A stretch of DNA of 64,000 nt from Siphonodentalium dalli. Lineage: Eukaryota; Mollusca; Scaphopoda; Gadilida; Siphonodentaliidae. Below the pieces are notes generated by a model. It worked only from the letters and a program-made list of their open reading frames with translations. It had not been told where the DNA came from and did no database searches. A program made the translations under genes and the position numbers. Of this stretch, positions 19,170 to 64,000 are shown in pieces (the stretch's first letter is position 1; each line of letters begins with the position of its first letter). Location of the stretch: the NCBI GenBank assembly GCA_032622095.1, contig CP136067.1:80068705-80132704 (forward strand), given 5' to 3'.

Positions 19170-19822
19170 CGGTGGCTGGTTTAGGACATTGTAAAAAAAA
19201 AGCTCGCACGTTCGAACGTGCGAGCCCTTACGTTCGAACGTGCGAGCCCTTACGTTCGAACGTGCGAGCCCTTGCGTTCGAACGTTGCATTCGAACGTGC
19301 GAGCCCTTGCGTTCGAACGTGCGAGCTCTTACGTTCGAACGTGCGAGCCATTGCGTTCGAACGTGCGAGCCCTTGCATTCGAACGTGCGAGCCATTGCAA
19401 TACTTGCTTCGTTCGAACGCACGTGATACATGCTCGCATGTTCGAACGTAAGAGCTCGCACGTTCGAACGCAAGGGCTCGCACGTTTGAACGCAAGAGCT
19501 CGCACGTTTGAACGCAAGAGCTCGCACGTTCGAACGTAAGAGCTCGCACGTTCGAACGTAAGAGCTCGCACGTTCGAACGCAAGGGCTCGCACGTTCGAA
19601 CGTAAGAGCTCTTGCTTCGAACGCAAGGGCTCGCACGTTCGAACGTAATGGCTCGCATGTTTGAACACAAGAGCTCGCACGTTTGGACGCAAGGGCTCGC
19701 ACGTTCGAACGCAAGGGCTCGCAAGTTCGAACGCAAGGGCTAGCACGTTCGAACTCTTGCGTTCGAACGTAAGGGCTCGCACGTTCGAGCTTTTTTTTTA
19801 CCATGTCCTAAACCAGCCACCG
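19170..19822. mobile_element. Foldback element built of a 22-bp satellite, flanked by TA
   Basis: The ends 'cggtggctggtttaggacat' are exact inverted copies bordered by TA on both sides, followed by an A-tract and then arrays of about 22 bp ('gttcgaacgtgcgagccctt' plus two bases). The left arm (about 19200-19395) runs forward, the right arm (about 19436-19790) is inverted, and a spacer of about 40 bp lies between. The unit itself contains the palindrome GTTCGAAC. A TA target suggests Tc1/mariner-type mobilisation. Long Arg/Ala/Ser-rich frames on both strands arise from the repeat period and are not genes. Confidence 0.85.
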
Positions 19823-24234: not shown

Positions 24235-27200
24235 GTATGTCGACATAATGAATAACCACGTATTCTTACACCATGCACTCCGTTTGAACAAAATACACCG
24301 CAATTTATTTATTGCACCGGTTTGGGTTTTCCCGCCAAAATGTTAGATAATTAATTCTTCAAGTTATCAAAATCAGCTGATTATTGAAAACATGCACGCA
24401 CATCCATTCAATTTTAAATATATATATTATAATGTACCAGTAGTAATATTTATTATAATTTTGTACTATAGACGTATATTCGCTATCTTGGAGAAAATTT
24501 CTGGTTTGTATAATATTAAAAAAAAAATTAATAATCAAATTTGTGAGCTTGCATCAAGTAGCAATTTACCTCAAAGGTTTTTGGAAAAGTACATGTGATT
24601 GTTTAGATATTTATGTTTTCAGAGGGGGAGATAACTACAAGCATATGTAAATTAAAGCAAAAAAAAAAAAATTCCCATTATTCTTTTTTTGCCAAATTTT
24701 TAAAGTTCGGGCTTTGAAATAAAATGTCTGTAAGGTTTGGGCTTCGTTGGGGGAGCAAGAAGAGCCAAAATTTCTTAGCCATTACTTAAATCAGTGCCCA
24801 TACAATCTAAAAAAAATAGTAAGTAGTTTGTCTCGCCTCTGTTTTCTGCCACTTTTTTGACCAGCAAAATTAGGTGATATAAAACAAAACCACTATTTCA
24901 GGAAGATGCAAATAAATATGAACAAATGGAGTATAAAAATACTTAGAAAAGTAAATAGAATAAGAGTTAGTTGTCATGTATAGTGGGAAAAAGGAAATAA
25001 TCCTGGTATAAAGTGAGTTTACAATAGAATAAACATTGTGATGTAACATGTGTCCAGATAGGCACTGGAAATGAAACTGTGGAAGTGAGGTTGCTACATC
25101 AGGGTCAGCGCTGGACCAAAATTTACTTTTGCCAAATGAAAATATTTTTTGTCAAATTCTGTTTATTGATATGATAGGAAAGCATTTAGTGAATAATTAT
25201 ACTCGCATCTCTGTTGTGGTTTATCATACAACATTGTCAACAATAAATCAATCACCGAACAATAATATGATATTGAGCGTTGCTTCATCAGAAGGGCGCA
25301 TCACATTGCAAGAGGAATAGCTATGTAAACACTACCACCACCACACAAAATACCGGTAATCACTCTACCCATCAATACTAATGCTATCAGATTAACTTCA
25401 TCTTTATAGATGTGTTAACTGTTCCTAAACCATATAAAACACCACTAATTAATATAATTATATTGTATAAGAGTTTTCTGAAATGAATGGTATTGATTGA
25501 CAAATATTTTTTCAACTTTCTTCAGGAATTAAAAAGTGACTTGCCAAAACTTTTGCCAAACGAAAATATTTTTTGACAAATGTGAATTATTTGCCAAGTG
25601 GCAGAAACATGGCTTGTTGCTATTCATCCGAAAGCTCTCAGTGAGAGCTTTCCAATGAATGGCAACAAGCCATATTTCTGACTAAATCCTGAAAAAAAGT
25701 TACCCATAATTCTGCTGTGGTTAAGGTGTCGATTATTTAGGGCATTACTGTATTTTGTTCATGGTTGTCAGTTTGTGTAAGGCTTCTCACCAAACCATTC
25801 TATCAGTCATAATAGCATGGGAAAATGACAATATTTGAGATATTAACATGTTCACTGCCGACTATGAGTTATCTCGTGCTTTTAGATGTAATTGAATGGG
25901 CGTCAGCAGTGAACGTGTTAACATGCTGGTTTTAATAAAATTATTTTTATTCCCAAAAAATGATTTCAAGTGAATATATTATGAGATTTGCATTCATCAG
26001 GATTGTGTTCCCTCCTCCATCAAGAGATTTATTTATTAAACCAACTAATAAAATTATGTGGCCTTATTTGGTTTTTTAGCTGATTAGAATATAATATCAA
26101 AATTTTATATAAAAATAGTTCATCAATTTGGCTAATATTTCATTTGTACATGTAAATGCATATTTACGCAGCTCTTGAAATTGGATATTTTACTAGTACG
26201 GCATTTGTCTAGAACTGCATGAAATTCTATATATTGGCTTAGAGAGCTACATATTTTTTTCTATGGCGTAGCTAATTTTAAGTAATAATAATTATTAATA
26301 CATATATATTGTTCTCTCCTGATTCCTCTCATTCAATACCAAATATAAGAGAGCGTAACTCAACCCTTCCATCAATGCACCTTTTGTTGTATGAAATTAA
26401 AGAATTAAATAATGTCCATCAGCATTATAATTTGATTTGAGTACCATGCTATACTGTACTTGAATATTTATTTTCAGTTTTCACAAGGAGGGTGCTCTCT
26501 GCTTTCAAAGAAAAATTCAAAATTCAACTGCCTTACACTGGACTAGCACTTTTGATTGGAATTGCCTTTGGACTGGTGGCAAGATACAGCAAGCATGTTA
26601 ACAGATATGCATCCATCATAGAAGTCAACCCTCATGTCATCTTACATTTGTTCCTGCCTGTGCTCATATTTGAATCAGCATTCGGCATGGAGTCACACTT
26701 ATTTGTGAAGTCTAAGCTGCAGGTGATAATCCTGGCTGTTCCTGGATTGGGTATGTATGTATTTGGAGTATTCTTTTGGAAATCCCCCCCTAATATTTAT
26801 ACCCCCACTTTTGACCAGGGTTCCCGTGGATCCTTGAAATCCTAGATTAACCTTGACTTTGACAAATTTACCATTCAAAGTCTGGGAAATGCTTGAATTT
26901 CCATGGTAGGTGAACCTTTTGTTTTGGCGACATTAGCATCTCTTGCCAAATTCGTATTAAATTGATGCCAATTGCATTTTACCGTATAATTTAAGGTCAT
27001 GAAAACAGCTTAATATTGTCCAGAAATGGCCTTTTAGAATTAAGACATTTAATCCTTTCTTGATGGAAGGCCCTGGTGCAGCATTAAAGATCCTGTGCCA
27101 GTGCATACTCTTACATATGTGAGTCTCCCATAGGGAGCCTCGCATATATAAGAGAATGCACTGATTTACAAGATCAATGTAAATATTGTTAGGCCAATTA

Positions 27201-30200
27201 TATATTGATGCATTCTCTTAAAGCAAGGCTCTCTATGGGAGACTCTGTTTATATAAGAGAATGTATTGGCACAGGGTTTACGCAAAATTTCAGGAAGCTC
27301 CAGTCATGGAAGGCGCGGTTAAGGGCCTTGAAAAAACATGAAACAATTTGAGAACCCTGTTCATTCAAAAAAGGAGGGAATGATTAATTTTAAGTCCTCC
27401 CTGTTCATACCGAATGATATCAACATGAAGACACAGGTACACATAGTTGGTGTGGATTGTTTGGCCATTGCCAAATGGTGGGTTCAGGAAATGAAAGTTT
27501 AAGAAGAAAGCGAGAAGCCATTTCATTCAAAGCCTTGATATTGCATACCGGTATGATAAATTGATCAGAATATATTTATAGTTCAAAGTGTTTGAGATAT
27601 ATGGGGTTTTTCTATTCCAGTGCTATCAGCGTTTTTGACATCTCTTCTTGGAAAATATATGTTTACATACAATTGGGACTGGTACACCGCAATGATGTTT
27701 GGCTCTATATTGAGTGCAACAGACCCTGTAGCTGTGGTTGCAATGCTGAAAGAAATAGGTTTGTAATAACTTTAAAGGGACCCAAGCACTTTCGTGTTAA
27801 ACCATTGTTATGTAAGGCCAAAGAAAAAAGATACTATGTTTTCGGTCTAGATAGTTCAATATTTCTGCAGTTTGATAAAAAAAAATCAAAATAAATTAAA
27901 AAAAAAATCCCTACATACCTACCTTAATTTTCGCTCCGTTAGTGGAAACATACAATCTTTTTTTTTTGGTCTAAACAAAACTGTTACATTGATTTCAACA
28001 AACTTTGTTAATCTTTGTAAACTTGGAGGTAGCAGTTTGAAAATTCTGACCAGTGGGGCGGTGCGAGTTTCTTTTGAAGCTGGTTAAACAGACCATCTGG
28101 CCTCGTCGCTGAGAGAGACGGTCTCCCAGGAATCGGTAAACAAAATGTGTACTGTCGAATGTAAGACAAACATACTTGAGTTCGATTAGGAACTAAAAGT
28201 TCTCCGGGGCGTGCCATAAAACGACAATAAATCGAAACACTTGAAGGAGAGATATTTGTACAATTATATACATACATCGATACTTACACATGTTCTGAAA
28301 ATGAAATGAAATAGAAACAATGTAAGATATTTGGGATAATTGGCATATTGGACATATGCTATCGCTCTCTCTAGGCGCGAAACGCTGAATGAATACCTGG
28401 AAAGCATATCCAAACATATATAGCTTATTCTATTGGGCTAGGGATGCATGTGGCTACATGCGGATCATGGTGTCAAGCTCAACAGGACTGGTCTTATTTA
28501 CGACCAATTCTGTATGTTTAAATTATTATAAACTGTTGACAAAATTTAATGTCAGTCCAATTCCTCACTGTTTTTGAAAAATTTGAAATTCCTATTTCTA
28601 CATTAATTAATATGATTATTTTGAATCAATACATGGAAAAATCCTACTTTCAGTCCAACAAAGGGCTTTTCCTCATTGGGGTTCACATTAAAAGTGTACG
28701 CCATATTAGTTAAATAGGTGTATTTTAGTTTATGGCCTTGTAATATTTTCGTTATAATAACCCTTCATAATAATGAACATTCATAAACAAAACATGACTC
28801 CTATCCAAAATCGGTAATTATATGGCATTTATAACTCGTTTTTGTTTTCCCACTGAAAATTTGATTGGAATACATAGCATAGAAAATAGAATATCAAATT
28901 TGTTCACTTTATTTGTAAATAAATCGGCATATGGCAATACAAAATCATGCACATACCACATTGTAACAAATCATAAATGTTGTCTCTCTTCCCATTAGTT
29001 TCATGTCATTGTGATGACAGGCTGTACATATAGTACCACACACGAACATACAAATGTTTGACTAAAACATGATATTTAGTAATTGGTATACCACAAGTGG
29101 GCAACGCATGTAAAACTGTCCAGATACAAGAAGAAAGAAATACCAATTTAATGATATCCAATCTGATAATGAGGACAATTTTAAATGACTTTGACCTGCA
29201 AAACCTGTTTCATATGGATATAGAATCAATATCATATATTTCCCTTACCCCCATTTCGAAAGGAAAATCGTCGCATCGTTTTAGTTACATGTCCGTGCAG
29301 CCGTCTGTCTGTTAAGCTACATTCCGCAGATGATAAAAATATTCTGGCAAATTGTCATCAAATTCCTCATAGATGGCTATCTATTTTATATTTTTGGCTG
29401 ACACATTTTGGTGAAATACATGGCAGATTCTTGACAGATATTTGAAGGCAAATTTAGAGCAATTTATAGTCAGTTGCATAATCCCCCTGCATGCTACTGG
29501 TAAACGGTAAATTAAGAAATTTATCGTTCATATCGTAGCATACACCATCCTCCACGATGAAGTGTCCATACAATTTTGGTGGTATTTTCCTGATTTGTTG
29601 CGGGAATCCCAAGTTATAGAATTCCATGGCCAATTGCTTCAGAAAAGCCACCAGCCTGTGTCTCACAATGGTCTCATCTGAAGATATGTGGGCATGTCGT
29701 CAGTAGTATATAGCACCTGGAATTACAAAATACTGTCTTTTTCTTGCACTGGAAATTGGGCCAATGTAAAAATGGCTATACATGTATATACCGGTTCACA
29801 TATACCTGTTTTAGTCTCCTCCTGCTTGTTTTTCTTTGGATAATTTTGATGTAAACTTTTTCTCATGCCTTAATCGTCAAATTACGTTTCAATGACGCAT
29901 TATTCAGTCTATTATGGTAAAGAAATATCTAGAACTGACCATGGTCAGACTTCAGGATATGATCAGTTTCAGTGTCGCGTGTATAAGACATTGCTTAAAG
30001 ATCATGTTGTAGCCGGGGTGAAGGAGAAGATCACTCGATCTTTTCGACCATCCCGGGCGCTTCGCGCCCATCTACTCACTCTCTGTTGTAGCCGGGGAAA
30101 TATAAAGGTCCTGGACACCATGACTGTCATCGCCATGCTAAAATAAGATGAAGAGTATATATAATATGCGAAAAAGTGTCTTTTTCCACAATAAATTGTT

Positions 30201-33200
30201 GAGGATACTCTTTAGTCGAATCACGACTATTAAAGCGGACAAATATTTAGTGACTAATAATTAACATTTTTGGACTAGCCGGACAGTAATTTCGAAGCAG
30301 ATACCTGTATATAAATTGGAAATTTGGAATACTGAGATATTCCATGACAATACTCGATATATGCATTTGTGAGAGGAGGACAGGCGCTTCGATCGATATA
30401 ATGGTTGTGGCGAAAGTGGCTGAGATTATTGTGAAAATTTACAATTTCTGGGATATTTTGTGGAAGAAATTGTCGCGCGCCGATGATTAAATTGCATTTT
30501 TTCCATGGTAGAGCAGATAAAAATGCTATATTAACTGAGTGAGAGAATCCATTTAGTATTGAATTGGTTAATTCAAGTGAAACATGCACATTTTGTTATC
30601 AGAGCTCCTTCACAAAAATTTATATTATGTATGTGGACACCAGAATTATGTATGTACATAGTTTTTGACACCAGAATTATGTATATATACATAGTTATTT
30701 ATGAAACAACCAAATTGGCATGACTTTCCATGTTGACCGATTCCCAGGTTGTTGAAATTTTTTATGATAAATTATATGGAATTGGACTTCATGATAATCA
30801 AATTTTTGTTTTTATTTCTACTGACAGGTGCATCAAAGCAACTGGCTATGTTGATTGAGGGTGAGTCCCTCCTCAATGATGGAGCAGCGATTGTTATCTT
30901 CAATGTTTTCCTAAAATTGGCAGCATCAGAAGAAAACACGTCTGGTAAGTTCACAAAATCAGAACTTAGATTGATCAACTAGTACAGATAGTCCTTTCTA
31001 GGTTGAGTTCCTCTTAGGGCTGCCACGATTAATCGAATAATCAATTTAACCCTTTACCCAACAGAAGGGCCCTGTGCCAATGCATTCTCTTATATATGCG
31101 AGTCGACCATAGGTCGCCTCGCATATATATAAGAGAATGCATTGGCTTAACACATTAAAAATTATAAAATTGTTAAAGAATGTAAGAAAAAATGGTAAAA
31201 AGTGTTAAAAAAAGATTTTTTTTAGGCCAATGCATTCTCTTATATATGCGAGGCGACCTATGGTCGACTCGCATATATAAGAGAATGCATTGGCACAGGG
31301 CATAACTGTAACTATCACAATGTGGTCAAGGAGCCGGTTCCAATGATATCCATATTTGTATGGTTCTATTGAGACAGACCGAAGATATTTTAGGCTGTTG
31401 AAGCTTTATTTGGCCGGTTTTGGCCGGTTTGTTGGGTAAAGGGTTAACAACTGTTGATAAAGTGGATAAACGATTACCATTTTGATAATTGACTATTCGG
31501 TACTATTGTATAACAGTATATTGTGCTTTTCGGCAGTGTTTTATTTTCCGGTCGCACTGTTGAAGATTAACATGCACTGGTCCTTGATTGGCATAAATGA
31601 ACAGTATTTTAACAAAACGGACATTTCCCAACCTGGATAATTCCACCTTTGCTCATCTGTTCCTCGAAAATCATTCCTGTCCCGTTTTATGTTCCACTTC
31701 GAAGTTGTTTTTTGTTTACCTTCTTATTGATTTTTTTGACAAGATGGAGGTACCCGCACAGAAAAAGATGAGCTGCTGGACTATTTATCACATTTAGATT
31801 TGTTGCCGTTCACATCGAGGCCCGATAGGTAATAACCAATGGCTATATATGGAAATTATTTGGTTGTATATGTTCTTAGTCATACTGAATTTTACTAGTG
31901 GAAATTACGCTAGCATATAGTTCTACAAACCTGCGATTCTAAATTACGATAAAATACATCTTTACAAATGATTCACGACCTGTGTTTCAAGAATTACATT
32001 TATGGGCAATAGATATTACTTTTTCGACGAACCATATGTATGGGTACCACTTCTTAGTTAACAGGTGCTCCCCTTCTTAGCTCCAGAAATCCAGCATGTT
32101 TCGATTCTTATCAATTATAAATGTTCCACTTTTAAGATGAAAAATCATTGAGTTTTTACATGGAATCCTTTAGAAATTACTGTTTTAGTGATTGTGAGTA
32201 ATTTATATAATAATTTTTACAGTGACTAAATGGTAGAAACATGTCTTGTTGTGAATATATATAATTTAGTATGTATAATTGCCACAAATTACATTGGTAA
32301 TATTAAAAGTACTCAATCCAATCAGACAGTCCCCATATCATCAAGTTATAACAACAACAACATTTCTTCAAAATACGCTTTAGTTATCAGAATCGATTAA
32401 TTACAACAAAATAATGCTAACCACTGTCAACTATGGTATTACATTTCCCAAAACGTGTTATTTATCAACATGTTGCTCAACGAAATATGGCCGTATTATC
32501 ACTTGAGTATCACAAAATTTGGCTGTATTATATAATTACCATATGGTTTTAGAGTTATACATCTTCATCCGCAATTTTGTCCGAGACCGTCGGTTTGGCA
32601 ACTTTTTTATGGGCCACAAAATGTACACATTTAGAGAAATAAAAAATTTCAAAAATCGATATCTGATCACTCTGAGCTTTGATGGATGAGTTCCTAGAGT
32701 CGAATCAAATATTTTTTACCCCCGAAGCCATTGAAGAAATAGTAATTTGGGAGATCCTGCATGCATGGGTGTTTGTTTGAACGTTGAGGACATCCTGTGT
32801 GTCTTCTTGCACTAAACCATGCGACAATGACCAATTCAGCATTACCCGGTAGTGTGTATCATGTATGACTCTGAATTACTTTATGGTTCCTTGGTGCATT
32901 GATTTATCTTGATCACTAGACTATAGAGCATAGAGCGAGCATGTACTATATGTTCAATCAAAGGGTTTGATAACTGTGTGCAAATATTACATTATAGATC
33001 TGGTAGATATATAACTATGTCATAAAGTAAAACTTCAAAGGAATAAAATACAATCCATAGCACTAAATATTTAGCAGTTTTGATTCACGTTATCATATTC
33101 TCTGTATTGCGGAGATCGAGATTTGATTGAAATCGGTAACACCATTTTTATTATTTTATTTGATTAATTATGGCTCCCCCACTGTGTTCCTCCCCACCCC

Positions 33201-36200: not shown

Positions 36201-39200
36201 AAGGGTTAGCTCGATTATAAATACCCTAGATGACCCAATTGCATCTGTACCATATTAACAAATCATTACACTATACTTCATTTTATTATTTTCCCACTGG
36301 TGGCCATCTGTGTATTCCAATTTCCCACATTTTGTTCGTAACTCAAAGTAACCATTTTTTGTTGTGAATTGCTTGTCCTGGCAATAATAGACATCCAAAA
36401 CAAACAGCAGTACGTTAGTTATTGAATTATAATTCGCCATACCAGATACATTTTGAAAAGTCTTATATTGCAGTCATTATACGTACGATTAATCGATAAT
36501 TATCAATTATTGTTGGCTGATAATTGCAAGTTTCTTGTGGACATATATAGTTTCCACATACTTGAAATTGATCCCTGATATTTATGTCCAATTTCCACCA
36601 AATTTTATTTTTTTATTTTATTTGAATATTTCATAATGACAATATCTGAACTGATTCCATCGCACTGTCTTTGAACATGAACTTGAACAAGAATGTATGG
36701 ACTGTGTTATCCATGCTGTTCTCTATCCATCTATTGTAGGAAGTAGCATTGTGGGATACTTTTTACGGGTTACATTTGGAGGTCCAGTCTTTGGATTTAT
36801 TATGGCGAAAATAACCCTGTTCTTCCTGTCGGGAATCTTCAACGATGCTCTGGCTGAGATTACGCTCACACTCTCATCGACGTACCTCACATACTACATC
36901 GGTAAGTAAACTGTGCTTGATGGAGCTTTATCCCTTTCTATACTAAATGGGTTCTCCCTGTCAGTTAAAAAGTGTACATCGGAATGGTCTATTATTGATT
37001 TAGAGGGATGATAAGGTGATAAAAGCAGATGACAGATAAATAAAAGTGCAGAAGAAGTCCTATTTATTGAGGGAAATGTTTAGATAATAAGTTCAACAAA
37101 TGACGGTCAACAAATGAGTTCAACAAATGACAGTCATTTGTTGAACTTATTATCTGAACATTTCCTATGGTATTCTAACTACTCATCAATGATGCTTTAG
37201 TATAGAAAGGGTTAGACTTATTATCTGAACATTTCCTATGGTATAACTACTCATCAATGATGCTTTAGTATAGAAAGGGTCAGGAGATATGTACACTTTT
37301 TATCTGAAATCTCCCTCAGTCTAGTATGCCCCAACAATAAATAACAATGCCCTCTTTTTAGTAGCTTTCTGTCTCACAGCCTTTATTAGCTAATAGTCAG
37401 CCTCCAGTTGGCCTGTTATGATTTATGACCTGGCCATCTGCCTTTCAGCTGATCAGTTTTGTATCCTAAACGGGTCGCAAACAGCTCATGACGAATTTCG
37501 GCCTCTGCAGACGACATAGAGTTACTAATTCCCTCATGCTATCATAAATCAATTACCAGTTACGAGTACAAGTTTACAGCAATAAATTGTTTGCATGTTC
37601 CAATTTTATATCAAAATGTTGATCACAACAAAAACAAATTAATTTTTCTTTCTCTTTAAAAAAAAAAAAACGGAATAACCGGGGGACACACTAAAAGGTG
37701 TTGTCCGAGTTCGAGCCCGAGCCCAGTAAAAGGTGTAGTTGGGATTTTCAATTTCGTTTATTGTCGTTAATATAGCACGTACTGTACCCCATTTAATGTT
37801 GGAACGAGCATGAAGTGATCGATATCACAACTCTTGAAACTTGAAACTACTAAGTGGTTATACATTACGATTTATGTAATGGATAATATTCTGAGCAGAG
37901 GGGATTCGGTAAAAGAATAGACGAACTTGCGCCGAGTCTATTCTTGACCAAATTCCTGATGCTGAGAATATTATCTAACTTAAAACCCACCCATTGAATT
38001 GTCATTTGAGCCAACTATCCATTTGGTCTGGTCCACAGCTCTGTCTTGATTACCTGAGTATATGCCCACAGTTCAGCATGGACAGTTATTGTTGTCCACG
38101 GTTTCAATTATTATTTAATTAGAATTAGGACTCGCCAGTTGAGAGACGTTTCCTCCGAAGTTTGCGGTTGCGCTATGGATTCGGCCAGTGTATGTGAGCA
38201 ATTTATTTCTATCCAATTGTATTTGTTTATTTTTTTTCTTTCTTGATTTAAAGATGCCCCATCCAATTTGACATCAAATAAGTTAATATTACATAGAATT
38301 TATCAGGCAATAAAACATGAAAATAATGGTCCTTATGCATTACCAATACAGCACCACAAGAAACATCCAAAATAATGTGATCAGAATCATAAATAGCTTA
38401 TTTTCAAAATTTCTCTTCAATTTTCATTGTTGGTTGGTAATGAAGAAAAAACGCTCTTTATAAAATGTGATTTTCAGATATTCTGCCGCCAAACAACATG
38501 AAACCTGGTAAACTGCCTTATTATTAAGAAGTTGAAAGCACACAAGAAGCTTGCATAAATGGGTTTACTGATTCTTTCTCATTGTTGTCTTGTGTAGAAT
38601 ACGCAAGAATAGAAGTATTGAGAGACGTTTCCTCCGAAGTTGCTTACAACCCAGTGGCTTGGAATTTCCTAACTGTCCCTATTGTTGGGAGGAATCATGA
38701 AACAATTTGAAATATGAGTTTGAATACCGTAAAATGGGGTGACTTTGCCACCAACAGGGTGACTTTGCCACGTCACTGAGAAAAAGTTAAGAATTAACAG
38801 CTCAGCACCAATAACCAGATAGCTAAATGTTTCATATTTACTAATGATTTTACAAGTTCAGATTGTATCACATGTGCCACAAAACTTGATGTATACAAAT
38901 TCTGAAGGTCAAGGTCACCACGCGACCTTTATAGAACATTTTGGCAAATTTTCTACATAACTCCAAATTTGAAGGGTTTCTTCGACACCAGCAATGATAC
39001 ACACCTAAGGGAAAGTTCATGTTTATTGCTCTTTGGTCTTGTTTCCATGAATATATTTACTTTTTCCTGGTATTAGATTATTTAATTGTAATTTGGAAAA
39101 AAACAATTTCCATGTGAGAATTGAAATCGCTCGGGGTCACTTTGCCATAGTGGCAAAGTAACCCCGCATTAAATTAGAACAGAAAAATTTACAAGCCACA

Positions 39201-42200: not shown

Positions 42201-45200
42201 GCATCCGGGTGTGACGAAATTGATCAGTGCATCAAACTACCCGTCCCGAGATAGAGGTATCAAGCTTCAAAAGAATCGAGTTACGCAATTTCAATGTAAA
42301 TAAACCAAACGTCTGTTACACGGCTTTAACAAAAATTTCGGCCTGTGGACAATGATGTTTAGAAGGTGATTCTTCCGTCCACTATTCTCCTCAAACCAAC
42401 CTCGAAGTCCACTGTGGGGACGTATCAGGCGCTGATCTGAGAAGAACAGATACTACACTTTGATCTCAGCCAAAAGGCCGAGAAGCGTAACTCTACAGGA
42501 CTTCGCACTAAGCGAGGTGTGGAAAATAAATGCTCATTGAAACTATCAAACTATAAAACAGTCAACAGTCTGAATTAACAAAAAGAATGTCTGAAGTCGA
42601 AGCGTTGCGTCGAACAACAAAACCTTCACCAGCCTCATATACAAACATAACTGTACAGGACTTCGCACTAATCGTAAATGCTCATTGTAAACTATAAAAC
42701 AGTCAAAAGTCTGAATTAACAAAAAGTATGTCTGAAGTCGAAGCGTTGCGTCGAACAACAAAACCTTCGCCAGCCTCATATACAGATAAAGAGCGTTGTT
42801 AAGTTAATCAACCCGAATATGGAAAATATAAAGAGCGTTGTTTGTAAGGCAATTTAGCTCAGCGGATCCGGAGATATGAGTTTTGAAGGTGAAGGTCACG
42901 CCGCCGAACAAATGGATGGGCCTATGTTGGTCCTCGGGTGATACTACGTGCCCGTACCAAGTTTCGTCGAAATCGGTTTAGCCATTTTAGAGTCCATCGC
43001 GGCCACACACACAGACACACACACAGACACACAAACTTTCCTCAAATATATATTAGATGTATAGCTCTAACTACAGACAAATTCAGACCGCCATTCTGTT
43101 TTAGTTTGATTTATTTGTAATTTGTAATTGATTAGCAGGTTTTGACTTGCCAATGATTAGTGAGATGGGAGAACAATTAAAATTTTTAATTGGAAAATTC
43201 CCGTCAAATGTTTTGACCGAATGTAGGAAATTCCCCACTAATTACTAATTATCCCCACCCCCATATTTACGCCCGAGTCCCTGTTACGACAGACGTTGTA
43301 TGTATATTTTTATTCTATTCTCTCAACTCACGACAGGAGCTAGCATTCTTAAAGAATGCCCTGGGTATTCTTAAAGAATGCCAATGCCCACGGGCATTCT
43401 TAAAAAAGAATGACCATGGGTGTTTAATAATGCTCATGCGATCAAAAAGCTTGAGCATTCTGCCAGATAAGAGCCGTGTCAGGGCAAAGGGATAACACGC
43501 CAGTGGGTTTTAATAAGAAATAATATCAGTTTCCTAAGGTGATTACAAAGCTAAAATGCATCATACATCATCATATAACTACTAAGTGATTATACATTTA
43601 CGATTTATTAAGAAACAATTTGGTTGATATAAGTACCCTATTACTTTATACTTTATACTCGGTAATTATATATGCACACACACAAAGAAGCTTCCATTTG
43701 AAGATGAATTTGAGATATTTGCATGCAAACTGTAAACTCGCCTTTATTTAGAAGCACTCGCATTGGGCTGAATTGGTGTCAAACCAGGAGATAGTTATTT
43801 TTTATATTGACTTCTTTCTTTGTCGATCGATCCGGTTCGATGGCAGTCGAGGGTCTTCTGCGCGGTATATTTGAAATCTTGAACAGATGGATATATAAAA
43901 GTAATATCTCATCAATTTATTGTACTAATTTTGTAGATTATATATATAATTATTTTTGTTTTTTTATGTGTTCAGAATCCCGCCGATATCACAACGGGGC
44001 GGCGCATCAGTAGTTACATTACAACTGGAAATAATATTCCGATGCTCTGACATAACCTGATTTCGCAAAGTAAATTTGTGCAATAAAAGCAGAAAGATCC
44101 ACTTTGAGTCATAAATTTGGAATTGCAATGGTCGAGTTCTCAAATTAAACAACAATTGTGACACTTAATGAATATGTTTCACAATTCGTTTGTGAAGAGG
44201 TTCACCTAAATTCAATATTGAGACAAATTTTTTTTTTGACGCAAATTTGCAACCAGTGAACCAGAGTGAACCATGTGTTTCTGTTTCGTTTGTTTTCATT
44301 TTGTCAGCCAATACGAGACTGAGTATATCAACATTTTGTAATTATATAGGAACATTTTGTAATATATAGGAACATTTTGTAATATATAGGAAGGCAAGAT
44401 GTAAATTTGTGCCTTCATTATAATTTTAGTTGATTAAAACAAATTTATTATAAAAGTCTTTTTTCATGGCTGAAGTGACAATCATAATGGAACTCGACAA
44501 GAAAAACATACGAGTGGCCAGTTCCGCAACTGTGATGTTGAGATTTTGCTTAGCTGTGGCCGATTTTAATTAGGACTGGGAAAATTTTTCATATTGCACT
44601 ATTTGAAAACATAAAATCACCATCTAAGATTCCAATAAATATCAATTTCAAGTTGTACGCAATTAATCAACAAGGAAGCATCTCTGACAACAAATTTTGT
44701 CTTCGTCACAATCACGTGTTTCTATTTCGTTTGTTTTCATTTTGTCAGCCAAAACAGTATTCTAAATCACCATTTTGCAAATCTAAAGCCTAGTAGAACA
44801 AAACACAATCAATGTAAATCGTCATTATTCCTCTTTATTCGCGTCTCAAATCCGAGTGTTGAAAATGCAAAAAATTAAAGACGTCAAAAGACGATATGGA
44901 CGCTACAACAAAAGACATCACATGCCGATATGGATGCCACATCAAAAGACGATACGTTGGAATAAGGGTAAATTGCCTCACCCCTTTATGACTGTGAGGT
45001 TGTTATTATACATGTACTTTGATTTGTGTGAATCATGTGATTACAAATTCAGCATGACCTGGACACACCCTCCTGTAAAATGTTATTTCACTTTAAGGAG
45101 AGACGTTCCTTGGAGTATCAGGCGTGCTAGCTGTTGTTGTCCTTGGAGTAACAATGAGTGCTGAGAGAACGTCTATTAGCCCTGAGGTGGAGAGATTCCT

Positions 45201-48200
45201 GCACAGGTATAAAACTGATATTAGCCATGAGGTGGTGCGAGTCCTTAACAGTATAAAACTGATATTAGCCCTCTGGTGGAGCGAGTCCTAAACAGGTATA
45301 AAACTGATATCAGCCCTGATGTGGAGTGATTCCTGCAAATGTATAAAACTGATATTAGCCCTGAGGTGGAGTGATTGCTGAACAGGTATACAACTAATGT
45401 TAGCCTTGCCTGGAGTGATCCTTGAAAGAGACCTATGTGAAACTGATATTAGCCCTGAGGTGGAGCAATTCATGTACAGTTATAAAACTGATATTAGCCC
45501 TGAGGTGGAGTGATTCGCGTACAAGTATTAAACTTATATTAACCTTGCGTAGAATTATTCATGCACAGACCTTCATACAACTAATATTAGCCCTGAGTTA
45601 GAGATATTTCTTCAGAGGTATAAAATGTATATTAGCCCTGAAGTGGAGGATTCCTGCACAGGTATAAAATAGAGAGAAATCAATTGGTGAAAAATTCACA
45701 AGGGGAGCCATCACTAAAAGGAGCTATTCTAAAGACAATATGTGACAAATAGTCCCGATCAGCTGATGCGCTCACCACGGACATAATTCACAGGTGTGGT
45801 ATTATCACTTTTAATTTACTGAGAAATCCTTATAAATCACGACCGAGTGTGTAATAAATAGAGAGTACTCAATTTGTTCTGAGAATTATATTAAATAATT
45901 CTCAAGAGGCGAGAGACGTCAATAAGAAATGAGTGCGCGTTAGCACACAAGTTTCTTGCCTAAAGGTCTCTCGCCTCAAGTCAATGATGTCACAAGAAAT
46001 AACGTTAATTCACTAGTGACATTACCATTTTTAATTAACCGCGTTTTCATTGGAACTCGCGAAGAGAAGTGTAATTGACTGATATTAACCCTGAGGTGGA
46101 GATCCAGTTGCATACTGGAAGTTTGATCGTTCTGCAGTGAAGTCGTCACTGAGACAAATTTAGTTTAAACAATATTTTATTCCAAATCAAAAGATATAAC
46201 ATAAACATTACACATACTGGTACATAAAGATTCAGAATGAGTATCAGACAACAAGTTGATATTAGCTTCTTTAACCCTTTCATGACGGGAGCTTATTTAG
46301 GCGCCCTATGGGTGACTCCCATATATATAAGAGAATGCACAATTGCACAGGGTTTTCGCCAAAATTCAGGAAGCTCCAGCCATGAAAGGGTTCGATCAAG
46401 ATTTGTATTTACATTAACAAACGTTTATTGGGGTAACTCAGTTCAGCGCCCGTACAACTTCCTGTTAATCGTACCTAAAGTAAACAACTTTCTGGTTGAA
46501 CTCAATTACATGACTCCTAGCTGCATGGTGACTTATTTGACATGCATTGTCAATGACAGACACTCTACTCCAAATTTGTGCATGCTTTACAGATGGTGCT
46601 GTTGAAGCGAAAATTAAAGTTAGTAGCTCTTGACCAATCAGAATGCATTGTTTAGCAACAAATATCCAACTTGAATTACAATGCAATTAACATTCTCACT
46701 ATTTCTTGATTTTTTTTGGTGCAAATTATAGGTTTTGGGAAGTCCTAGCTTATCTGACCAACACGCTGATATTCATTATTGTGGGCGTCGTCATCTCCCA
46801 GAAGGCGATGAACCAAATCCATGGAATTGATTGGTTCTACATGTTTGGATTATACTTTGGACTGAATGTCATCAGGTATTTAACCCTTTATCAAATAACA
46901 TATCTAGTTACGCCATATAGTCATATAGCCAACATCGCCAGGTTCAAGTTCAAAGGCAATTACGTTAGCCAACTAGTATGGTCTTTGGAGGTTAGACCCA
47001 GAAAATAATTGGTAAATTTTGGCAATTTTGATGTCATTCGACACGGGGAAAATCTCTTTTATAACATATCTGAAATCCACTAAAATCTAATTTGGGTAAA
47101 ATCCGGAATTCAAGATGGCGTCCAATATGGCCGCCGATAATAATGGAAATCACAAATAGGTAGTTATTCATGAAAATCTACAATGAAAATGCGAATTCGG
47201 CACCAACATATATCACTGATTGCAACCAGTATGTTGTGGAAGGTGTGTGTAGCCAAGCATGAATCAACATTAAAGATGGCTACCAAAATGGTCACCGAAA
47301 ATTGTCAATTTTTATGTTTTGTTCAGATGAATGCCAAAACAACTCTTCAGTTGTGCATAACCGATGCTAGACTCATTAAATATTTAGTCAATACTATTTG
47401 CCACCACAATGAGTCCCACATATTAGAGCCAAATTGTTCCAACGAAGCAGTATCTACTGCAGGACCAAACATGATGCACACTTACAATGGAGGCTTCCTG
47501 GAAATTATGTAGAGATTAATCAGATTGCTTATGAAACTGTATAATATTGCCATAGTGTCCATTTTTATGTATAACCACAATTCAGAACTTTTCCATCAAA
47601 TATATGGACATCAGTGGTCTAGTCTGTATGGTGCATAAGCAATGACATTATGCGGCAATGGGTCATCCAGGGATGGCGAAGCTGGAAAGGACACTGAAGA
47701 GCACGTAATCTGGGGTTCATGCAATTGCAAAGGGAGGGTAGCATAAGTATAATTTGTGTATGTGGTCAAACTAGGAGTTTTATATCCCTCTAATATGAAA
47801 AATGTTGAATATTTCTTCACTTCCATCCATTCAATTGATATGGAGATGTATTTGAAAATCACAATTAAAATTTACCTAGTTGAGGGTCATTTTCGAAATT
47901 GGTTGGACCTGATTTGGACAAGCCTTCTGGGGTTGCTTCAGTCAAGCGCACAACTCTGTGAATATTTTCGAGGAGGAAAAATGTAATGTTGCCCACATAG
48001 AAAATTGATGTTTCTAAGTATCTTCTTAATAAATTTTGTCGTTACAAGTTCCAGAATGATGGTAACGGACGTACCTATTTTCGGTAACTGACGTACCCTT
48101 GTGAAACTAAGATCATTGGGCCCATCAATTGTGGCCAAAATCAATTGAGAAGTTATTGAAACATAACAAAGTAAACAGTCTAATATCATTGTAGCAAGTG

Positions 48201-51936: not shown

Positions 51937-51985
<49 letters not shown>

Positions 51986-57900: not shown

Positions 57901-60900
57901 AGTTGAATCACCCACCCACCCCGGCCTACTGTATGGAAAAAAGTGGATGACCCCCCCCCCCCCCCCCCCATTCATCTACTTATATTTCCTGAACATCCCC
58001 CACATGAATAATAGATCATGTATACTTCTATAAATGACTGAGAATTCATTCAGTAAAGGAATGGTTAATTTCAATTGGATAGAGGCATCGTGATAGGATT
58101 ACTGAGTCCAGTGCTGCGCCACACAGGCTATGGTATGACGTGGAAGGAGGGATGCGTTATGACCTGGGGAGGTTTGAGAGGAGCTGTTGGATTAGCCCTC
58201 GCTCTGCTAGTTGCTGAGGAACATTCATTGGATAAAGACAATGTGAGACTGAAAGTGAGTTTTTAAATTCGCAGGTTTCAGGTAATATAATCAAGTGCTC
58301 AATCCCTTTGACAATTTATGCTTTCACTTCCATATAATAATTTTAATAACTGTTGTGTATGTTGCATGGTTTTCTCTGTTAGACAGTCGGCTTAAAATTT
58401 ACTGTCACAAATTTAAACATACCATATTTGAAACAGTAAAACTAGTGGTCTACCACTGAAAACTATGTAGCACAATTTTATTTTATCCCCCGCAAATTAA
58501 AGCCACATGGCGGTTTGTGCTCCAAAATATATACACCCAATAATATTCCCTTTTTAAAAACATTCTGTTATCGAAAGATGTCAATAAATACCTGAACTAA
58601 ATATGTCAATAAATACCTGAACTACCATTCTACGAGCATTATATGTCACAGAAAGATGCATTGAAGTCATAAAAAATACAACTTCGAACAAAATGTACGT
58701 GTCCTGTACAAAAAACAGTGTCAGTTGTATTCATCAGAAAAGGAATGTCCAGAAAAGGTTTATTGTGTTATCATCACATGAAACTATTTACAAACTTCAC
58801 GCCCTGCTTTTTATTAGGTTTAATCAGCAAAATTATACAGTACCATAAATGTTACAGACCGACGACAGCTCAAGATTTTATTCCCATGGCCTACAGTTGC
58901 AATTTGTATGTGACTACTGGTTGAACAAATTTAACCGACACAAGAAACAAAACATGTATTTTCAGCACTATAACAACAAATTTGTTCGTAAATCTTCCAC
59001 ATAGGTATGTTTTGAAATACCTCTTACCACATTATGTATACATAATTTTGGGGTTCTAAGAAGCCATGTCCGTTTAAATGAAGTTTGGCAGGGGATATAT
59101 CAAAATGGTTCTGTCCGTCCGTAACAACTTTGGATCGAGCTCTCAACCTAAAGTCATTATAGGTCAGATTTCAATTATCTTTGACACTTATGAACCGCCA
59201 TGGGGAAGGGAAATCTAAACGGAACTGGTTTTGTCCATACATTTGTTGCAGAGTTATGGCTTTAGTTGAAAAGTCATCTGTGACAAGCCTGATTTTAATG
59301 TGTCTGACATTTGCAGAATGAGGTCCCCAGAGGGTGAATGTAGTGATGCTAAGCCGCACAGTGGGCTAGCATCACCAAATTCACCCTCTGGGGACCTCAT
59401 TCTGCATGGTCTCATCTGCTATGGGAGACAAATACTCAGATTAATGTTCCCAAATGGTGAATATTGTGATGTACACCATTTGGGAACCTTGATTATGCAA
59501 TGTGTCATCTGCCAATTTGGGAAATAGAGAAACTAAACTAATAAATAAAATAGAATCTATGTGAAGAAGTTTCTTTAGAAATTTGATAATTATAATAAAG
59601 AAACTTTTCCAAGAAGATAAGTCCTAAGCAGAATGAGGTCCCCAGTGGGTGAATTTACTGATGCTACCCACTATGCAGGATATCGTCACTAAATTCACCC
59701 TCTTGGGACCTCAGTTTGCAAATGACAGGCACCTTATTATGTGCCAACTTTTGATCTGTCATGTTTGAATGATATTTAGTAGAAGCATGAAGGGAACAAT
59801 ATCCACATGTAAAATGTTTTGTCCATTTATCAGTTATGGCCATTAGACTGTAAATTACATCTATCCCTGTATCTTCAGGACGTCATATTACATAGGATGA
59901 GATTAATCTTTGGTACAGTCATGACAAGGTTTATGCTAGCCGAAAATAAATGAGACCATTTGGCGGGAAACTCCAAACCCGACTAGGTGACCAATGGTGT
60001 GGCCCATCTGGAGACAATTTTGGCTTTTGCGAATGAAAAGTAGCCATTTTTCTTGCACTTGCACCTGGGACAAGAGTCAGGAACTTTGAAGATTTATACT
60101 AAAAACAAATTGAATGTGGATGTGAAATAATACAAGTAATGTACCTAAAAAGAGTGGCAGCCTGGTCATAAATTTACGTCAGAATTCAGGTGACAACCAC
60201 ATGCTTCTTAAATTATCGGGATTAATATGTATTTTTATTATTTATTGAGAGTAAATTATAATTTTTGCTTTGGCAGTTTAGAGGTGCTATGAACAAGTAA
60301 ATATATATTTTCTTACAGATCCTTGTTCATGTTTCCGGCATTGTGTTCTTGACTTTGATTCTCAATGCTACAACAATTCATCCACTGCTGACTCTTCTAG
60401 GTTTGTATTTATTTCCACTTGTAAAGATGGAAATATATTTCATGTATTAATTTTTTGCCGAGTTCTATAACAAAATAACCGATGGTTTGATGAATGACAG
60501 TGGTCATTTGTGTCAGTCCATCCATTTGTCTGTATGTCATGACATGACATAAGCGAGATAACTCCAATAAAATTTACCCTATTTTAATCACGTCTGTATC
60601 GCAATGCACACTGCTCTTCTAGGTCTGCATTCATTCATGAAAATAAATATTATATGTAATTTTATATTATATAAATATGCAGAATAGAACAATAGGGAGG
60701 TTTAGATCGAAAGCTTCTAATTTCAAACCTTTCTTTACTAAATGGATTCTCCCAATCAGTTAAAAAGTGTACATCGGAATGGTCTGTCATTGATTTGGAT
60801 GGATGTTAAGGGGATAAAAGCAGACGACAGATAAATAAAAGTGGTGAAGGAGCCCTATCTATTGAGGGAAATGTTTAGATAATAAGTTCAATGAACGACC

Positions 60901-63178: not shown

Positions 63179-64000
63179 GTTAGTTGCATTATATACCTTC
63201 CATGTTACACATCTTTCTTTCTTGTTTCAGCTTGCCTCATAGTGATGAGCGAGTAATAGCCTGTTACGTTTTGTGGGCTGTTAATTTTTTAGTAACTTTC
63301 TGTTAATGACATCTATCTCCTCCAAATTTCCATGGACTCTAATATTTGTGAAGTTTTCTGGCTATAATATACCTTTTATCATGATGGAACAGACTTGTTT
63401 TCTGCCTAATTCTCGTTGAGAAGGTACAGTAATACCCTAAGTAATCGACTCTTTAACTACAGCAGAATTATGGGTAACTTTTCAGGATTTAGTTGGAAAT
63501 ATGGCTTGTTGCCATTTATCGGGGAGAGCTTACCGATGAATGGCAACAAGCCATATTTCCGACTAAATCCTGAAAAGTTACCCATAATTCTGCTGTACTT
63601 AGGGCATTACGGTATATTGCCACATCATGCTGTTGCCTATTTCTGAAAAGCCAATATTTCAAACAAAAAAACACACCTTTTCAGAGATGTGTGCCCATGT
63701 AGCTTTAGGCCCTGTGAAGATTCGAAGAGTTGCATGGTTTGGTGTCGAATCTCCAATTTGTAGATTTCTAAAATTGGGTTAATCTTGTTCATTTACAAGT
63801 CAAAGCTATATATCTAATTTATCCATGAGTGAAGATCAATGAATGGGGCAACTCCAACATTGTACAGAGAGGTCTCATGTCGATCGACACATATTTCACA
63901 AAAAATATCAGATATTGACACTAACTGATGACCTCAATATCCTCATATCTCTAATATTAGGTCACATTTAATTGAAACAGCCAAGATATAAAGTTACAGT
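63179..64000 (+). other. Start of exchanger intron 10
   Basis: Contains the full family B MITE and AT-rich DNA. A stretch after an acceptor-like 'accttttcag' at about 63684 stays open in the needed phase but does not resemble SLC9C, so it is not called an exon. Confidence 0.5.
63425..63614. mobile_element. MITE family B, full-length foldback copy
   Basis: About 190 bp. 'tacagtaataccctaagtaa' through 'tatggcttgttgccatttat' pairs with the right half ending 'cttagggcattacggta', leaving only a few bases of loop. TA lies at each end, fitting Tc1/mariner-type insertion. Confidence 0.85.

Follow-up and report, generated by a model that had tools for sequence, protein, structure and literature searches.

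A decayed 45-bp minisatellite at an exon edge of an SLC9C1-like sperm exchanger gene in Siphonodentalium dalli

Introduction

When the end of a coding exon and its 5' splice site recur many times in the following intron, do the copies serve splicing, or are they relics of past duplication? The question is raised by a 64,000-nucleotide stretch of the genome of the scaphopod mollusc Siphonodentalium dalli (GenBank assembly GCA_032622095.1, contig CP136067.1, forward-strand positions 80,068,705 to 80,132,704), hereafter the window. By homology, exons on its plus strand belong to a sperm Na+/H+ exchanger gene of SLC9C1 type, and a 45-bp tandem repeat begins inside one of them (exon F) and runs into the intron before the next (exon G). 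We consider it probable, at about 0.78, that this array is a minisatellite of the 'mirage' type, formed by duplication of the exon edge, whose copies have since drifted and which would have no regulatory function. Exon-edge arrays of this kind are already known from lancelets and from human ABCA7; the present case adds an SLC9C1-like gene, and mirage arrays probably extend to animals other than lancelets.

The array and its source

Tandem Repeats Finder reports a 45-bp array at 45174-45669 (10.9 copies, 73% matches, score 447). Laid out in the phase of the exon, it comprises 11 units of 44-49 bp each, covering 45174-45674, and the repeat unit spans the exon-intron boundary: unit 1 takes in 33 nt at the end of the exon and the 12 nt that open the intron (Table 1). 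AG|GTAT is kept in 5 of the 11 units, unit 1 counted, the downstream junctions (4 of 10 units) lying after 45295, 45385, 45617 and 45661. An earlier note on this DNA had described a minisatellite that starts in the exon and repeats its donor, with at least four downstream AG|GTAT units, in an exchanger gene with a role in fertility. The array start at 45174, the span of unit 1 across the 45206 donor, the count of four and the homology to SLC9C1 among Protein Data Bank (PDB) matches bear out these points. Its length of 44 bp for unit 1 needs correction, as the exon-spanning unit is 45 bp and the 44-bp step is the first intronic one (45207-45250; unit 2 in the phase used here). The unit fragment at 46078-46102 was absent from it.

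Chance similarity between the exon end and the intron was considered and rejected: when unit 1 is matched without gaps to its own intron, the top six sites agree at 36-40 of 45 bases, compared with 26 of 45 for the best site in 300 first-order Markov introns. Tandem repetition in itself is not unusual in the window, where 32 of 2520 sampled 45-mers match at least 38 of 45 bases within 500 bases downstream. A gene-wide tendency to such arrays is likewise rejected, as only this donor, among 12 splice junctions examined in the window, has nearby copies of itself; one 18-nt match at another acceptor (expectation value, E, 0.022) was set aside as chance. Also rejected, within the sensitivity of a tool that passes over simple repeats and words of very high frequency, is a dispersed satellite that adjoins the exon by chance, since a genome search with 45098-45440 matched this locus only.

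The repeated exon part encodes ISPEVERFLHR, and the solved sperm exchanger reads SISPEVEVFLHR, then FWE, as here. Because this exon end is conserved in the solved SLC9C1 structures, the exon part is old coding sequence from which the array derives, and the exon is thus its source. Unit 1 is 98% identical to the 11-unit consensus and the remaining ten units are 70-91% identical to it (gap columns left out). The locus offers a clean case of a coding-exon minisatellite whose source and direction of copying can be read from the sequence.

The host gene

Chains named 'Sperm-specific sodium proton exchanger' were the top PDB matches in 5 of 5 queries, covering six exons, ahead of plant and other exchangers, and the matches run in gene order (Table 1, residues in 8otq_A numbering). 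We take the matched chains to be sea urchin SLC9C1. The intron between exons F and G is in phase 2, at FLHR|FWE. When the joined peptide of these two exons was used to seek a paralogue, the sole locus found among 13 scored candidates, within the limits of the search, was this one. In SLC9C1, voltage-sensor and cyclic-nucleotide-binding domains come after the exchanger domain; a crude motif scan for them in 58001-64000 and the next 80 kb returned three hits, none convincing, and the gene may extend further.

Table 1. Array units and exchanger exons in the window (Arg codon, state of the codon that is AGA in the exon)
Feature	Position	Strand	Arg codon	Description
Unit 1 (founder)	45174-45218	+	AGA	authentic donor after 45206; 98% to consensus
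Unit 2	45219-45262	+	CGA	44 bp; one G lost at junction (ACA|GTATAA)
Unit 3	45263-45307	+	CGA	CAG|GTATAA kept after 45295; holds TAA 45289-45291, ending read-through from the exon
Unit 4	45308-45352	+	TGA	junction AAT|GTATAA
Unit 5	45353-45397	+	TGA	CAG|GTATAC kept after 45385
Unit 6	45398-45446	+	TGA	49 bp, degenerate; without AG|GT junction
Unit 7	45447-45491	+	CAA	donor lost (TACAG|TTATAA)
Unit 8	45492-45536	+	TGA	junction CAA|GTATTA
Unit 9	45537-45584	+	TTA	48 bp, degenerate; inserted ACCT and one-base deletion in common with unit 6
Unit 10	45585-45629	+	ATA	GAG|GTATAA kept after 45617
Unit 11	45630-45674	+	one base short	CAG|GTATAA kept after 45661; final 5 bases no longer match unit
Unit 12 fragment (stray)	46078-46102	+		24-nt matches, 96% to array, E 2.6e-5
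Exchanger exon	26478-26750	+		8otq_A residues 97-174
Exchanger exon	30828-30944	+		8otq_A residues 222-253
Exchanger exon	36740-36901	+		8otq_A residues 265-314
Exon F	45098-45206	+		exon 6 of the earlier note; 109 nt; encodes ETFLGVSGVLAVVVLGVTMSAERTSISPEVERFLH(R); donor CAG|gtataa
Exon G (next after F)	46732-46875	+		encodes FWEVLAYLTNTLIF...; acceptor ttatag|G
Exons F and G joined	45098-45206 + 46732-46875	+		8otq_A residues 315-399, E about 7e-29; splice phases fit
Exchanger exon	58085-58254	+		8otq_A residues 402-443

Decay of the intronic copies

A stop of some kind stands in the unit's own register in 6 of the 10 downstream units. TGA at the Arg codon accounts for 4 of these 10 units and is never the first stop met, so that the earlier statement that most units carry TGA in the exon frame does not stand. 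CpG decay turns CGA into TGA when it strikes one strand and into CAA when it strikes the other; since the CGA, TGA and CAA states of the Arg codon in units 2-8 (Table 1) match such decay, the founder codon was probably CGA, and TGA would need no selective reason.

Constraint was assessed by counting changes from unit 1 in the ten copies, with gaps scored as changes. The average per column is 1.89 changes in the nine donor columns compared with 1.67 in the others, the five AGGTA columns average 2.0 compared with 1.68 elsewhere, and the donor window ranks 19th of 37 windows for changes. By codon position (1, 2, 3) the averages are 2.36, 1.64 and 1.60, with no third-position excess seen in the ten copies. 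Both preservation and purging of donors were considered, and neither was seen, as the donor columns change about as much as the rest. Mean pairwise identity between units is 76% (0.757), and adjacent pairs also average 76%, equal to all pairs (the adjacent mean was taken by hand). With no sparing of the donor columns, no third-position excess and neighbours no more alike than other pairs, the copies appear unconstrained and not recently homogenised. They look like old, drifting relics, and the decayed state of the units suggests that present turnover of the array is low.

A further event may have struck the far end of the array. About 408 bp (45670-46077) separate unit 11 from the unit 12 fragment, and the break lies inside a unit, at GTATAAAA / ACTGATATTA, as if it split two neighbours, for which reason this stretch is a probable later insertion. 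No target duplication was recognised around it, and a comparison with the rest of the window at E 0.01 gave no match, only an internal inverted repeat. Inverted repeats lie inside the stretch, one of them with 23-nt arms at 45895-45917 and 45966-45988 (78%). Similar 27-nt stretches occur at 45662-45688 and 45851-45877 (81%).

The following history would account for these features. Tandem duplication of a 45-bp segment over the junction of exon and 5' splice site would have placed copies in the intron, and later duplications, each of one to several units, would have lengthened the array. Unit 1 was presumably kept in place by selection acting on both the protein and the authentic donor, while the intronic copies would have drifted without detectable constraint, losing junctions and gaining stops, in part by CpG decay of a CGA codon. 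The insertion of roughly 400 bp probably entered near the far end of the array. We infer that the first donor, at 45206, is used in most transcripts and that splicing now and then from the copies, which are similarly weak, would yield a truncated, non-productive message.

Competing donors in the array

Donors were scored with a set of donor weights, and U1 pairing energy was computed as a second measure. The authentic donor, with the 9-mer CAG|GTATAA, scores 4.03 and ranks 15th of the 95 GT sites in exon and intron; its U1 duplex energy of -7.7 places it fourth among the six exon donors (range -5.7 to -10.9). Among the array copies, the donor after 45617 scores 2.99. The highest-scoring GT of exon and intron, CAG|GTGTGG after 45793 (9.8, U1 -9.2), is not part of the array but falls within the stretch that was probably inserted.

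When joined to 46732, all four array donors lead to one shared premature stop, the TAA at 45289-45291 in unit 3, and the 45793 site does likewise. In read-through the 44-bp first step shifts the frame, and this TAA is the first stop met. The expectation that later donors would truncate the protein is therefore correct for all four AG|GTAT sites. A translated extension of the exon was considered and is rejected, as read-through ends at 45289. Three donor-like sites precede the stop. Of these, CTG|GTGGAG at 45275 is in frame and would add 23 residues; GAG|GTGGTG at 45231 and GTG|GTGCGA at 45234 are out of frame.

Several observations weigh against a purely passive array. The copies at 45295 and 45661 carry a 9-mer identical to the authentic donor, and 45385 scores 4.82 compared with 4.03, with predicted U1 pairing equal to that of the authentic donor; given such equal or better copies, sequence alone does not explain the choice of 45206. 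The authentic donor also has the lowest score of the six exon donors (others 5.58-10.61), and for this reason leakage to other donors may be sizeable, although by U1 energy it is fourth. The decay argument is open to challenge as well, in that TGA in units 4-6 and 8 could have come by multi-unit duplication instead of independent decay, and the constraint test, one alignment of ten related copies, has low power. The two nearby donor copies identical to the true site make the locus a natural test of how the spliceosome chooses among equal donors.

Comparison with known exon-edge arrays

The closest parallels are the 'mirages' of amphioxus, minisatellite-like duplications of intron-exon boundaries described in the globin genes and Adh3 (PMC3087553), with further cases in PGBD5 and troponin C (PMC3902484). 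Adh3 data and globin reverse-transcription PCR described in PMC3087553 suggest that mirages leave regular splicing intact, although many repeats hold AG/GT signals. Among these arrays (Adh3, BflGb6, BflGb9, troponin C and PGBD5), the unit of 44-49 bp found here falls within the 10-72 bp given for Adh3, and the imperfect units recall the PGBD5 mirage, whereas unit identity is below the 81-100% given for BflGb6. Splicing and length variation are reported for amphioxus, whereas the present array is known from the sequence of one assembly.

In human ABCA7, the variable number tandem repeat of intron 18 starts at the 5' splice site of exon 18, its 25-bp unit beginning with the donor GT; according to PMC5954066, retention of one unit is out of frame and independent of repeat length, whereas skipping of exon 19 depends on it. 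The two arrays differ in that the first two bases of the ABCA7 repeat are the intron GT and its copy number ranges widely, from about 12 to 427 units (PMC5954066), whereas the unit described here includes 33 nt of coding exon and its copies have decayed. Because ABCA7 uses a donor one repeat unit downstream, leaky use of downstream donors in the S. dalli gene is credible by analogy. Variation of minisatellites at exon-intron boundaries of human paralogs has also been described, together with novel intron formation (PMC2812944). Titles, abstract openings and passages in the literature searched, most subscription papers being outside its scope, yielded no exon-edge array in SLC9C1.

Alternative explanations

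The array could instead be a working source of non-productive splicing, in which weak donors of like strength compete and lower SLC9C1 output, perhaps according to array length or cell type. In its favour, the four AG|GTAT sites downstream score 2.99-4.82 beside an authentic 4.03 and all end at one early stop, there is precedent in the frameshift caused by the downstream ABCA7 donor and in the rise of exon 19 skipping with repeat length (PMC5954066), and mouse Slc9c1 is among the genes whose splicing changes when RBMXL2 is removed in Rbmxl2 knockouts (PMC6345566). The copies themselves speak differently: their donor columns are no better preserved than the rest of the unit, and the nearest copy, unit 2, is without AG|GTAT. 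Furthermore, passages of PMC3087553 and PMC3902484 report amphioxus mirages as free of aberrant mRNA, and one-unit retention in ABCA7 did not vary with repeat length (PMC5954066). We regard this explanation as quite unlikely, and the proposal of a 'tunable' splicing regulator in the earlier note is unsupported, the donor columns of the copies having diverged to about the same degree as the other columns. A stronger version, in which an exon-edge array outside lancelets holds several competing weak 5' splice sites, donor choice sets the productive share and array length tunes it, would be very unlikely. As evidence of regulation the array is weak, since its copies resemble drifting relics; nothing in the DNA speaks for regulation of splicing by the array, and the decay pattern favours neither regulation nor present length polymorphism.

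That the array is at present length-polymorphic, with the reference representing one allele, appears unlikely in its own right. Amphioxus Adh3 and globin mirages do differ in length and may seed new introns (PMC3087553), the ABCA7 array spans about 12 to 427 units (PMC5954066), and two stretches of about 124 bp (45301-45424 and 45440-45563; offset 139 bp, 80% alike) point to a past multi-unit duplication. The units have nevertheless decayed (73% matches, mean pairwise identity 76%), and, in this one assembly, adjacent units resemble each other no more than distant ones do, in contrast to arrays that are actively turning over. That the intron, or its 5' part, arose when an exon segment bearing AGGT was duplicated in tandem is highly improbable. 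This is the Rogers model of intron gain (PMC4974935), proposed also for amphioxus mirages (PMC3087553), and the array shares with it a tandemly copied segment that has AG|GT near the boundary. The unit length of 45 is divisible by three, unit 1 is stop-free in the exon frame (ISPEVERFLHRYKTD), and the intron start TAT AAA ACT GAT agrees by eye with exon GAG AGA ACG TCT at 6 of 12 bases. Such agreement is near chance, however, and between 46103 and the acceptor only 10- and 18-nt unit matches occur, none found by BLAST. In contrast to the model, the copies lie inside an intron already opened by the authentic donor, and no new intron is shown.

Additional features of the window

Further along the same intron, 46273-46392 contains a 22-nt inverted repeat (91%; AACCCTTTCATGACGGGAGCTT / AAGCTCCAGCCATGAAAGGGTT). 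Sequence from 46299 onward recurs in related form at 27226-27313, 31070-31300 and 61667-61918, and on account of these three other places in the window it is perhaps a dispersed element.

Between two exchanger exons, antisense to the gene, lies a match to the U2 small nuclear RNA (42297-42489, minus strand; whole model covered, 66.2 bits compared with a gathering threshold of 46). Its 5' part, through GUGUAGUAUCUGUUCUU, fits well with one inserted A, and its 3' part is decayed, which makes it probably a U2 pseudogene or a diverged variant. Adjoining it, 42490-42790 holds a direct repeat of about 140 bp, both copies of which contain text like ctgaattaacaaaaagtatgtctgaagtcgaagcg; one 45-mer there matches at 44 of 45 bases within 500 bases. 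Tandem repeats of 22 bp with a TTCGAA core occupy 19208-19754 in one block per orientation, ACGTTCGAACGTGCGAGCCCTT and then GCTCGCACGTTCGAACGCAAGA, with 14.7 copies, and 51938-51984 is an unbroken run of 47 C that is a likely assembly trouble spot.

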